From: Actinomycetospora soli
GTDB lineage: Bacteria; Actinomycetota; Actinomycetes; Mycobacteriales; Pseudonocardiaceae
Direction: 5' to 3'
Length of the DNA stretch: 64,000 bases
Assembly (NCBI RefSeq): GCF_021026295.1
Contig: NZ_JAJNDA010000001.1
Coordinates: forward strand, 124,001-188,000
A program made the position numbers and the translations under genes. Below are positions 54,950 through 58,885 of this stretch, piece after piece (position 1 is the first letter of the stretch; every line of letters starts with the position of its first letter). The notes beneath the pieces were generated by a model. It saw only the letters and a program-made list of their open reading frames with translations. It made no database searches and was not told where the DNA came from.

Positions 54950-55063
54950 CGTCCACCTCTCCCCGCCCACGACCACCGACGAACACCTGTTCGACGCGGG
55001 ACGCTACCGCGCGGGTCCGACGATCACGGGGGGACCCGCCGGGCCCCCGTCGGGTGACGGAGG

Positions 55064-56220: not shown

Positions 56221-56892
56221 TCACCGCAGCGCCCACGCCGGCACCTCGCGGGCACGCTCGGTGCGCGCCGCCACCGGGCCCGGGTCGGAGTGCCGGAAGG
56301 TCACGCTGATCCGGGGCCCGGCGCCGGGCTCCTTCGGCACGGTGTGCTGCCACTCGTGCTGGCAGCGCCCACCCATCACCAGCAGGTCCCCGCCGCAGAC
56401 CGTGAGCCAGCGGGTGCGCCCGCCGGCCACCAGGGGTCGGAGCCCGAACCGACGCGGCGCCCCCAGCGACACGATCGCCACGACCGGCGCCGGGTGGGTG
56501 AACCGCACCCGGTCCCCGTGCCAGGCCACCGAGTCCGTCCCGTCGCGGTAGAAGTTGGCGGACACCCGGTCGAACGCCTCGCCGTAGCGGTCGGCGAGCA
56601 GCGGGGCGAGCTCGGCCGACGGTTCCGGGGCGTCGGCGAGCGCCCAGCCGGCCGTGAGCCGCGGCTCCACGATCTCCTGCTCGAACATCCGGCGGCGCCG
56701 CTGCCGCCAGGGCACCTCCCGGACCAGTCGGTCGAACCACTCCTCGGCGCCCGGCAACCAGCCCGGGACGACGTCCACCCAGGACCGCGCGTCGAGCCGC
56801 GTCCGGTGCGCGCCGGACCACGACACGTCCGCGGACGGTCCCGACGCGAGACCGGGGACGTCGAACAGGGAGGGGGTGAACACCGCCGTCAT
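56221..56892 (-). CDS. AlkB-like Fe(II)/2-oxoglutarate dioxygenase
   Basis: 223 aa. The AlkB fold is shown by NFYRDGTDSVAWHGD (iron ligands His125 and Asp127), the distal ligand His183 in WQHTVPK and the 2OG-binding Arg in GPRISVTFR; RLTAGWALAD and LLVMGGRCQHEW are family-typical. Removes alkyl groups from N1-A/N3-C or similar bases by oxidation. ATG 56892 has no ribosome binding site; a TCGACT -10 8 nt upstream would make it nearly leaderless. That -10 overlaps a perfect LexA box (56902-56917), so it is probably DNA-damage inducible. Confidence 0.9.
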   Translation of the reverse strand: MTAVFTPSLFDVPGLASGPSADVSWSGAHRTRLDARSWVDVVPGWLPGAEEWFDRLVREVPWRQRRRRMFEQEIVEPRLTAGWALADAPEPSAELAPLLADRYGEAFDRVSANFYRDGTDSVAWHGDRVRFTHPAPVVAIVSLGAPRRFGLRPLVAGGRTRWLTVCGGDLLVMGGRCQHEWQHTVPKEPGAGPRISVTFRHSDPGPVAARTERAREVPAWALR

Positions 56893-56901
56893 GCGCTAGA
56901 G

Positions 56902-56917
56902 TCGAACACATGTTCGA
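56902..56917. promoter_or_regulatory. LexA (SOS) box
   Basis: TCGAAC-ACAT-GTTCGA, a perfect 16-bp palindrome that matches the mycobacterial/actinobacterial LexA consensus TCGAAC-N4-GTTCGA. It covers the -10 region of the AlkB-like gene (minus) and the predicted start site of a plus-strand promoter (TAGAGT, 56897-56902) that leads to acyP and the AlkZ-like gene. Confidence 0.9.
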
Positions 56918-56967
56918 CCAGGGGGCAAGTCGCGTCACGCCGCGACGCGCAGGGTACGGAGCACGCC

Positions 56968-57234
56968 ATGAGCGCGCGTCACCTCGTCGTCCACGGCACC
57001 GTGCAGGGTGTCTTCTTCCGCGCGAGCGCCGAGCAGGAGGCCGGGCGGCTCGGCGTGGCCGGATGGGTCCGCAACCGCTCCGACGGCACGGTGGAGATGG
57101 TGGTGGAGGGCGACGACGAGGCGGTCGAGGCCCTGGTCCGCTGGGCGCACGAGGGGCCCGCGCGGGCGGACGTCACGGGCGTGGACGTCTCCGAACACGA
57201 GCCCGAGGGCCTCTCCGGGTTCACCCAGCGGTGA
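56968..57234 (+). CDS. acyP: Acylphosphatase
   Basis: 88 aa, full family length. VHGTVQGVFFRASAEQEAGR holds the phosphate loop and catalytic Arg; GWVRNRSDGTVEMVVEG holds the catalytic Asn. Hydrolyses carboxyl-phosphate bonds. ATG 56968 follows GGAG. It is about 58 nt downstream of the predicted LexA-controlled start site and 10 bp upstream of the AlkZ-like gene. Confidence 0.96.
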   Translation: MSARHLVVHGTVQGVFFRASAEQEAGRLGVAGWVRNRSDGTVEMVVEGDDEAVEALVRWAHEGPARADVTGVDVSEHEPEGLSGFTQR

Positions 57235-57244
57235 GGACCGCGCC

Positions 57245-58351
57245 GTGAGCACGGAGGTCCGCACCGAGCGCGTCCTCGCCCGGCGCGTGCGGCGCCACTT
57301 CCTCGCCGGGGCTCCCGCGCGGGACGCGGTCGCGGTCGCCGGCCGCCTGCTCGGGGTCCAGGCGCAGGTCACCGCAGCTGCCGACCAGGCGGTCGCGGTC
57401 CGCGGGCCGGCGGTGACGGCGGTGCGCGACGGGCTCGCCGACGGCTCCCTGGTCCGGACCTGGAGCGTGCGCGGCACCCTCCACGTCCTCGACACCGCCC
57501 GGGCACCCGACCTGCTCGCCCTGCTCGCCGCCGCCCGCACCTGGGAGAAGGGGTCGTGGCAGCGGGAGTTCGCCGCCGCCGACGAGGTCGCCCGGCTCGC
57601 GGAGCTGGCCGGCGGCCTCCTCGCCGACGGACCGCTCACCCGCGAGGAACTGGTCGCGGGATTCGCCCCGCACGTGTCCGACGGGCTCGCCGACCGCCTG
57701 GGCTCGGGTTGGGGCACGGTGCTCAAGCCCCTCGCATGGCAGGGACTGCTCGTGAACGGGCCGCCCCGGGGCCGACGCCCCACCTTCACCGCGCCGCCCT
57801 GGACGACGCTGCCCGACCCCGACGCGGCGGCGGCCCGCGTGATCCCGGCCTACCTCGACGTGTACGGCCCCGCGAGCCCGACCGCGTTCGACGACTGGCT
57901 GCTGCGCGGCGGCACCCGCCGGCCCACGCTGCGGCGGTGGTTCGCGGACCTGGTCGACGCCGGGACGATCACCCCGGTGGACACGGGCGACGGCGAACCC
58001 CGCTACGCCCGCACCGTCGACCTCGACGAGCTCGTCGCCGACGAACCGGCGCCGCCCGACCACCTGCGCTTCCTGCCCGCCTTCGACACGTGGGTGCTCG
58101 GACCGGGGACGCGCGCCGCCGACGTGCTCGCCCCCGAGCACCGCGGGCGCGTGAGCCGTGCCGCGGGCTGGATCGCGCCCGTCGTCGTGCGCTCGGGACG
58201 GGTGGTCGGCACCTGGTCCGGCCGGGACGTGCACGACGCCGAGCTGTTCGACGGCGGCGCGCTGCCCCCGGACCTCGTCGCCCAGGAGCACGAACGCTGG
58301 CGGAGGATCCTCACGGAGACCTCCCCGGTCGGAGAGGGCGGTTCCCCGTGA
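57245..58351 (+). CDS. AlkZ-like (HTH_42) DNA glycosylase, winged-helix protein
   Basis: 368 aa. The HTH_42 superfamily fold of three tandem winged helices is supported by the length and segments VRGTLHVLDTARAP, TREELVAGFAPH and YGPASPTAFDDWLLRGG. The catalytic QxQ motif of AlkZ-type crosslink-repair glycosylases is present as Gln39-Ala40-Gln41 in LLGVQAQV (QxD in YcaQ/AlkX types). So a glycosylase removing alkylated or crosslinked bases is likely. GTG 57245 lies 10 nt after acyP, with GTGAGGA upstream. The linked LexA box and AlkB-like gene fit a repair role. Confidence 0.85.
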   Translation: MSTEVRTERVLARRVRRHFLAGAPARDAVAVAGRLLGVQAQVTAAADQAVAVRGPAVTAVRDGLADGSLVRTWSVRGTLHVLDTARAPDLLALLAAARTWEKGSWQREFAAADEVARLAELAGGLLADGPLTREELVAGFAPHVSDGLADRLGSGWGTVLKPLAWQGLLVNGPPRGRRPTFTAPPWTTLPDPDAAAARVIPAYLDVYGPASPTAFDDWLLRGGTRRPTLRRWFADLVDAGTITPVDTGDGEPRYARTVDLDELVADEPAPPDHLRFLPAFDTWVLGPGTRAADVLAPEHRGRVSRAAGWIAPVVVRSGRVVGTWSGRDVHDAELFDGGALPPDLVAQEHERWRRILTETSPVGEGGSP

Positions 58352-58664: not shown

Positions 58665-58727
58665 GCGTCGACCGCGTCGACCGCGTCGACCGCGCCGACC
58701 GCGCCGACCGCGCCGACCGCGCCGACC
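58665..58727. repeat. 9-bp tandem repeat, 7 units
   Basis: Three GCGTCGACC units followed by four GCGCCGACC units, in the 290-bp gap between the CsbD-like gene and the FAD oxidoreductase. No gene was recognised in that gap apart from this repeat, the hairpin and the promoter at 58874. Confidence 0.9.
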
Positions 58728-58885
58728 GGGAACTCCACGCCACCCTTTCCCGACACCGACGGCACGCGGCCAGGTCGTTCGCAAGACGACTCCCGGTGGA
58801 CCAGGCTCCGATCCTCGTAGGTCCGTTCGGGTGACCACGGAGGGCTCCGGTCCGCCCCGACGCGCGCCGCCGCTACGGTCCGTCC

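Follow-up and report, generated by a model that had tools for sequence, protein, structure and literature searches.

The locus described here lies in a 64,000-nucleotide stretch of the Actinomycetospora soli genome (the window) and is arranged around a short divergent intergenic region. An alkB-type gene on the minus strand and an acylphosphatase gene (acyP) on the plus strand are separated by a gap of 75 bp, which encloses a LexA (SOS) box, TCGAACACATGTTCGA, a perfect palindrome with 0 mismatches and the sole perfect LexA box of the window. Ten base pairs after acyP, also on the plus strand, begins a gene for an AlkZ-like (AZL) protein, the named neighbours of which are ruvCAB, alkB, csbD and a gene for a DAO-type oxidoreductase. 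The features are as follows.

56221..56892, minus strand: alkB-type 2OG-Fe(II) dioxygenase, 223 aa (PF13532; H125, D127, H183, R194, R200)
56897..56902, plus strand: candidate -10 element TAGAGT of a putative acyP-alkZ promoter; its final base, 56902, also opens the box
56900..56905, minus strand: candidate -10 element of a putative alkB promoter, TCGACT here and TCTACT in the genus's distant clade; overlaps the box
56902..56917, no strand assigned: LexA (SOS) box TCGAACACATGTTCGA, perfect palindrome, 16/16 columns invariant in five near genomes
56923..56928, minus strand: candidate -35 element TTGCCC of alkB, with a 17-bp spacing to the -10 candidate
56952..56964, plus strand: conserved acyP leader with invariant runs GGGTACG and AGCAC and a Shine-Dalgarno-like GGAG at 56958-56961
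56968..57234, plus strand: acyP, acylphosphatase, 88 aa (PF00708; R18 and N36 kept)
57245..58351, plus strand: alkZ-like (AZL) DNA glycosylase, 368 aa, GTG start (PF06224; Q39-A-Q41)

A preliminary description of this DNA had placed a perfect SOS box in the 75-bp gap between divergent genes, and the box at 56902-56917 bears this out. It had also named an AlkB-type dioxygenase with His125, Asp127 and His183, and acyP next to a protein with the Gln39-x-Gln41 motif of AlkZ. Both assignments hold: the dioxygenase has HGD at 125-127 and H183, the glycosylase has Q39-A-Q41, and all three proteins score above the cut-offs of their Pfam families. Two other elements lie nearby. A second LexA box with one mismatch, ACGAACACCTGTTCGA, is found at 54979-54994 between ruvC and ruvA, before ruvA, and a one-mismatch box past ruvC is present in 7/7 loci (the near clade plus genomes G123 and G126). 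After csbD, at 58665-58728, there is a 9-bp tandem repeat, GCGCCGACC, in seven copies.

Products of the three genes

The AlkB protein matches PF13532 with 62 bits (Pfam cut-off 31.2), and its nearest PDB match is ALKBH3 (68.5 bits). H125, D127, H183, R194 and R200 are invariant across 17 Actinomycetospora proteins; we take the first three to form the HxD...H motif and R194/R200 to supply the 2OG-binding arginine. The structure model of AlkB had a mean pLDDT of 37.6 and was set aside. AcyP matches PF00708 with 84.9 bits (cut-off 22.5), has acylphosphatase 2w4d as its best PDB match, and retains in 17/17 genus proteins R18 and N36, which are presumably the catalytic arginine and asparagine.

The AZL protein matches PF06224 ("AlkZ-like") with 134.5 bits (cut-off 25.9), and AlkZ (5uuj) was its only match in the PDB comparison (252.6 bits). 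Its structure model (mean pLDDT 73.2) finds 5uuj as the first fold match (TM 0.77, E 4e-20, 42% identity) and AlkX next, with residues 35-56, which hold the QAQ motif, modelled at pLDDT <50. QAQ is present in 14/14 genus AZL proteins and fits the (Q/H)-aliphatic-Q motif rather than QxD; passages of PMC9040887 distinguish AZL from YQL subfamilies and give (Q/H)-aliphatic-Q as the AZL motif. The same genome encodes five PF06224 members, of which only the alkB-linked one has a box with 0-1 mismatches; none was found in the loci of the other four (L280-L283).

The LexA box and the gap around it

In the whole genome (6.5 Mb, 69 contigs) there are 16 perfect LexA sites on the plus strand versus one for the reversed pattern. 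Counts within the window are less telling than the perfect-site counts: eight sites with ≤2 mismatches were found versus 2.65 expected, a number matched by 1/100 shuffles. The genome encodes lexA (TIGR00498, 238.7 bits, above the cut-off), the locus of which has three one-mismatch boxes. Genes with a perfect box at the 5' end include one for a DNA polymerase III alpha-type protein (L005), which we infer to be DnaE2, one for a radical-SAM protein (L010) and one for a DUF222-HNH protein (L011). This set recalls the Mycobacterium tuberculosis response, which according to passages of PMC8151990 includes dnaE2, a DNA repair photolyase and HNH endonucleases. Nine proteins beside perfect sites were compared with Pfam. 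Of the remaining ones, four matched glyoxalase, GNAT, MarR and trypsin-like families and two matched nothing, so a perfect box does not always indicate an SOS gene. Five proteins, encoded at L011, L013, L014, L015 and L016, have similar N-termini (MAIEA.WDP), and each has a perfect box that coincides with its start or closely precedes it; one of the five is shown as DUF222-HNH (13E12-like).

The gaps of the five nearest genomes, all of the same length, were aligned as a footprint. The box is invariant in 16/16 columns and the rest of the gap in 29/59. A strict sigma-70 promoter and terminator scan of the locus found none, so the promoter elements listed above are our own reading of conserved columns. 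The candidate -10 in the acyP direction is the only TANNNT on that strand of the gap and is kept as TANANT in the five near genomes. On the alkB side, GGCAAG at 56924-56929 (CTTGCC on the alkB strand) is one of a small number of stretches outside the box that do not vary in these genomes; the candidate -35 was not seen in the distant clade. If the alkB elements are read correctly, the alkB transcript is probably leaderless. The GGAG of the acyP leader is replaced by GAAG in one of the five near genomes.

Conservation of the arrangement in Actinomycetospora

AlkB was found in 17/18 genus genomes, the exception being G127, which is 59% complete and the AlkZ fragment of which, at a contig end (L103), was left out of the counts. 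A box precedes the best AlkB gene in all 17 (perfect in seven, with one mismatch in ten), always 8-10 bp from the alkB start, and acyP lies divergently opposite alkB in all 17 across gaps of 38-90 bp. The check proposed in the preliminary description, conservation of box and gene order in relatives, was thus positive in every genus genome with alkB, and its claim that one LexA operator would serve both alkB and acyP-alkZ is supported by the same conserved box and divergent order. Second AlkB copies (44% identity) in G123 and G126 have no box with 0-1 mismatches in their loci (L091, L092).

The third gene is less constant. alkZ follows acyP in 14/17 genomes and is absent from that place in G098, G123 and G126; it occurs beside alkB in each of the two deep clades. 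The acyP and alkZ frames share 4 bp in 10/10 distant-clade genomes, and gaps of 4, 10, 10 and 22 bp separate them in the four near genomes that have alkZ. In one genome (G075) the alkZ frame (L051:1498-2844) continues into csbD downstream with no intervening stop codon. The preliminary description had considered acyP an odd member and possible passenger. As a default this was rejected because acyP is the most constant partner at the locus (17/17 versus 14/17 for alkZ), and it is also the sole free-standing acylphosphatase found in the genus.

The distance from box to acyP differs between clades. In the window's own genome it is 50 bp, and a separate acyP promoter is therefore conceivable there. 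In the distant clade it is 13-18 bp in 7/10 genomes and 29, 64 and 65 bp in the other three. A spacing of 13-18 bp would leave room for little beyond a ribosome-binding site, so the acyP-alkZ promoter should overlap or precede the box in those genomes, and bound LexA should also block acyP-alkZ.

Relatives outside the genus

The association of the box with alkB extends through the family. AlkB was found in 79/120 family genomes at 80 places, five of them in Actinomycetospora, and boxes were sought in an interval reaching from 200 bp before the extrapolated start to 60 bp after it. The box is perfect at 30 of the 80 loci, has one mismatch at 36, two at nine, and four or five at five. A box with 0-1 mismatches is therefore present at 66/80 loci, and any of 179 permuted palindromes is present at most at 1/80. 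No acyP or alkZ match was found within the 1.5-kb flanks of 25 non-genus AlkB loci. Three of the five loci without a box (L024, L025 and L026) encode the AlkB proteins nearest those of the genus (56-61% identity), which argues against unbroken descent of the operator unless the start estimates are wrong.

A collection scan gave 160 AlkZ relatives, of which the best 80 were kept, nine labelled Actinomycetospora and 71 others. All nine Actinomycetospora loci have alkB, acyP and the box. Among the 71 others in this best 80 of 160, 0/71 has alkB or acyP matched anywhere in the 5-9 kb fetched, and 0/71 has a box with 0-1 mismatches within 600 bp upstream of alkZ (less at contig ends); a two-mismatch box lies upstream of alkZ in 9/71. 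Four of these nine are Nocardia loci with an identical two-mismatch palindrome, ACGAACATATGTTCGC, upstream of the AlkZ-like gene (L199:3501, L207:3484, L209:3490, L218:3841).

In a tree of 25 of the 26 family AZL loci (L064, a short stretch, was left out, and the Actinomycetospora rows are the G genomes without the nine scan loci), a weakly supported branch (94/37) sets the 14 genus proteins apart from the rest, and the tree carries a long-branch-type warning. This placement makes a single acquisition of alkZ by the genus likely. A box with 0-1 mismatches within 400 bp upstream was found at 1/26 family AZL loci in the first search, and at 3/33 after seven AZL loci, three from genus g28, had been added on purpose. 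The four AZL-type (H-A-Q) loci of g28 (L077, L345, L346, L347) all have upstream a perfect box with TTATACC directly after it, the box being 139-163 bp from the AZL gene in three loci and 889 bp in the fourth (in L077 the box is at 1338-1353). Conservation extends to the left of the g28 box, where a leftward gene is found, so the box may serve that gene. It is possible that the g28 AZL genes represent an independent recruitment to LexA.

For the acylphosphatase, a PF00708 match, HypF counted in, is present in 120/120 sampled family genomes. Among 27 non-genus acylphosphatase loci fetched, 18 have both SMC signatures nearby. In Actinomycetospora the best acylphosphatase match sits at alkB in 17/17 genomes with alkB, and the nine remaining PF00708 matches lie within open frames of 756-983 aa, which are taken to be HypF. 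No acylphosphatase was found in the 1.5-kb flanks of 16 genus smc loci (at one locus the upstream flank is cut to 640 bp, and at one the smc gene is incomplete), in a search that recovered 27/27 control loci, three of them query sources. The acylphosphatase tree separates the genus proteins together with L121, L132 and L135 from the smc-linked group at 100/100, with a long-branch warning between its halves (the genus loci L124, L127 and L131 were left out of the non-genus set). These results agree with a history in which a resident smc-linked acylphosphatase gave way to a distantly related one at the alkB operator. The origin of this acyP was sought in 298 genomes of the order, and none of the 28 loci scanned had alkB or alkZ context; one of them (L318) has a one-mismatch box inside the acyP match.

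A predicted bidirectional SOS operator

We consider it probable that Actinomycetospora has a genus-specific bidirectional SOS operator, in which alkB shares predicted LexA control with a glycosylase of the crosslink type and with the one free-standing acylphosphatase found. As the box lies between the divergent genes, DNA damage would probably switch on alkB, acyP and alkZ together. The scheme that we infer, in its promoter positions, LexA binding, induction, substrates and order of events, would run as follows. LexA bound at 56902-56917 would cover the -10 region of alkB and the -10 and start region of acyP-alkZ, and both units would stay silent until DNA damage led to RecA-stimulated self-cleavage of LexA. 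Small N-alkyl lesions would then be reversed through oxidative dealkylation by AlkB; the task of the AZL glycosylase would be to excise bulky N7-purine adducts or to unhook crosslinks. The operator may predate the genus and belong to alkB, with acyP and alkZ added opposite it in the Actinomycetospora ancestor.

A match by chance to the LexA pattern might be considered, given the eight sites with ≤2 mismatches in the window, and can practically be dismissed: the box occupies the same position in 17/17 genus genomes with alkB and recurs at 66/80 family alkB loci, and the permuted-palindrome controls (at most 1/80) reject it. The box could instead be the operator of alkB alone, with acyP-alkZ back to back to it under a constitutive promoter of its own. 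Elsewhere in the family alkB does have the box with neither acyP nor alkZ nearby, the 50 bp between box and acyP in the window's own genome would accommodate such a promoter, and the status of acyP as the only free-standing acylphosphatase found suggests constant expression. We nevertheless regard this arrangement as improbable, given that the box is only 13-18 bp from acyP in 7/10 distant-clade genomes and that the gap has, in the acyP direction, a single TANNNT, which touches the box. A milder form, compatible with the bidirectional operator, is that LexA tunes acyP-alkZ, with leaky basal expression for housekeeping and both genes raised a few fold by the SOS response. That no acylphosphatase was found beside the 16 genus smc genes and that acyP is the only free-standing one found point in this direction, as does the graded LexA response in Streptomyces venezuelae described in passages of PMC9380542; we hold it tentatively, as a possibility to be taken seriously.

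The AZL protein might also be a leftover self-resistance enzyme against one secreted genotoxin, which came under LexA by accident of position. It is close to the azinomycin AlkZ, passages of PMC9040887 and PMC13303869 describe AZL enzymes as enriched in biosynthetic clusters and highly lesion-specific, and alkZ is absent from the locus in three genomes. Its position near alkB and ruvCAB in both deep clades, with QAQ kept in 14/14 proteins, tells against such an origin, and we think it rather unlikely. The bidirectional operator could be extended to a bolder proposal. The acylphosphatase would be a true arm of the damage response: the smc-linked enzyme would have been lost, with only a copy from another lineage retained under LexA, and breakdown of reactive acyl phosphates (acetyl phosphate, carbamoyl phosphate or 1,3-bisphosphoglycerate) would be raised along with direct reversal and unhooking. 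AZL would then be a repeatedly recruitable SOS module, of which g28 is a possible second case. We put this forward as speculation, with little expectation that it holds in full.

If the bidirectional operator is correct, the locus would be a ready system in which to study whether direct reversal and unhooking by a glycosylase act in a single coordinated response. A genus with its only free-standing acylphosphatase on an SOS operator would also offer a rare handle on the role of this small, enigmatic enzyme.

Comparison with known systems

The alkB half of the locus has clear precedents. The M. tuberculosis putative AlkB Rv1000c is SOS-box-regulated and was detectable only after mitomycin C (passages of PMC8151990), and S. 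venezuelae alkB (vnz_32390) is a LexA target with a box at -20 (passages of PMC9380542). In both, as described there, alkB has an SOS box and mitomycin C raises its product or transcript; the passages of these two papers mention no divergent acyP-alkZ unit, and "AlkZ" and "glycosylase" have 0 occurrences in PMC9380542. No description of an alkZ-acyP half under LexA, and no SOS literature naming Actinomycetospora, was found among the open-access matches listed. As far as those matches go, the alkB half was already known and the alkZ and acyP side, as predicted here, appears to be new. The mitomycin proteome table of PMC12288472 has entries for protein 6210 of Myxococcus, named there "winged helix DNA-binding domain-containing protein". 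The smc-linked acylphosphatase of Pseudonocardiaceae belongs to the same Pfam family as the genus AcyP but to a separate lineage, across the 100/100 branch.

For the glycosylase, the closest known system is AlkZ of Streptomyces sahachiroi (5uuj; AZL subfamily of HTH_42), which has the QxQ catalytic motif in common with the genus AZL protein. The S. sahachiroi enzyme is, in passages of PMC7367128, the azinomycin self-resistance enzyme of a biosynthetic cluster, whereas the genus AZL gene lies near alkB and ruvCAB behind a LexA box. E. coli YcaQ/AlkX (YQL subfamily) belongs to the same superfamily and unhooks crosslinks, but has a QxD motif; the passages of PMC7367128 report that ycaQ was induced neither by mechlorethamine, which did induce lexA, nor by MMS. 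Acinetobacter baumannii alkX is induced by mechlorethamine and by acid according to passages of PMC13303869, which mention no LexA link and in which "SOS" has 0 occurrences. Crosslink-type glycosylases are known from producers, where they confer self-resistance, from E. coli, where damage does not induce them, and from A. baumannii, where the route of induction is unstated; behind a conserved LexA operator, the AZL enzyme of the genus would be a regulated SOS repair enzyme.
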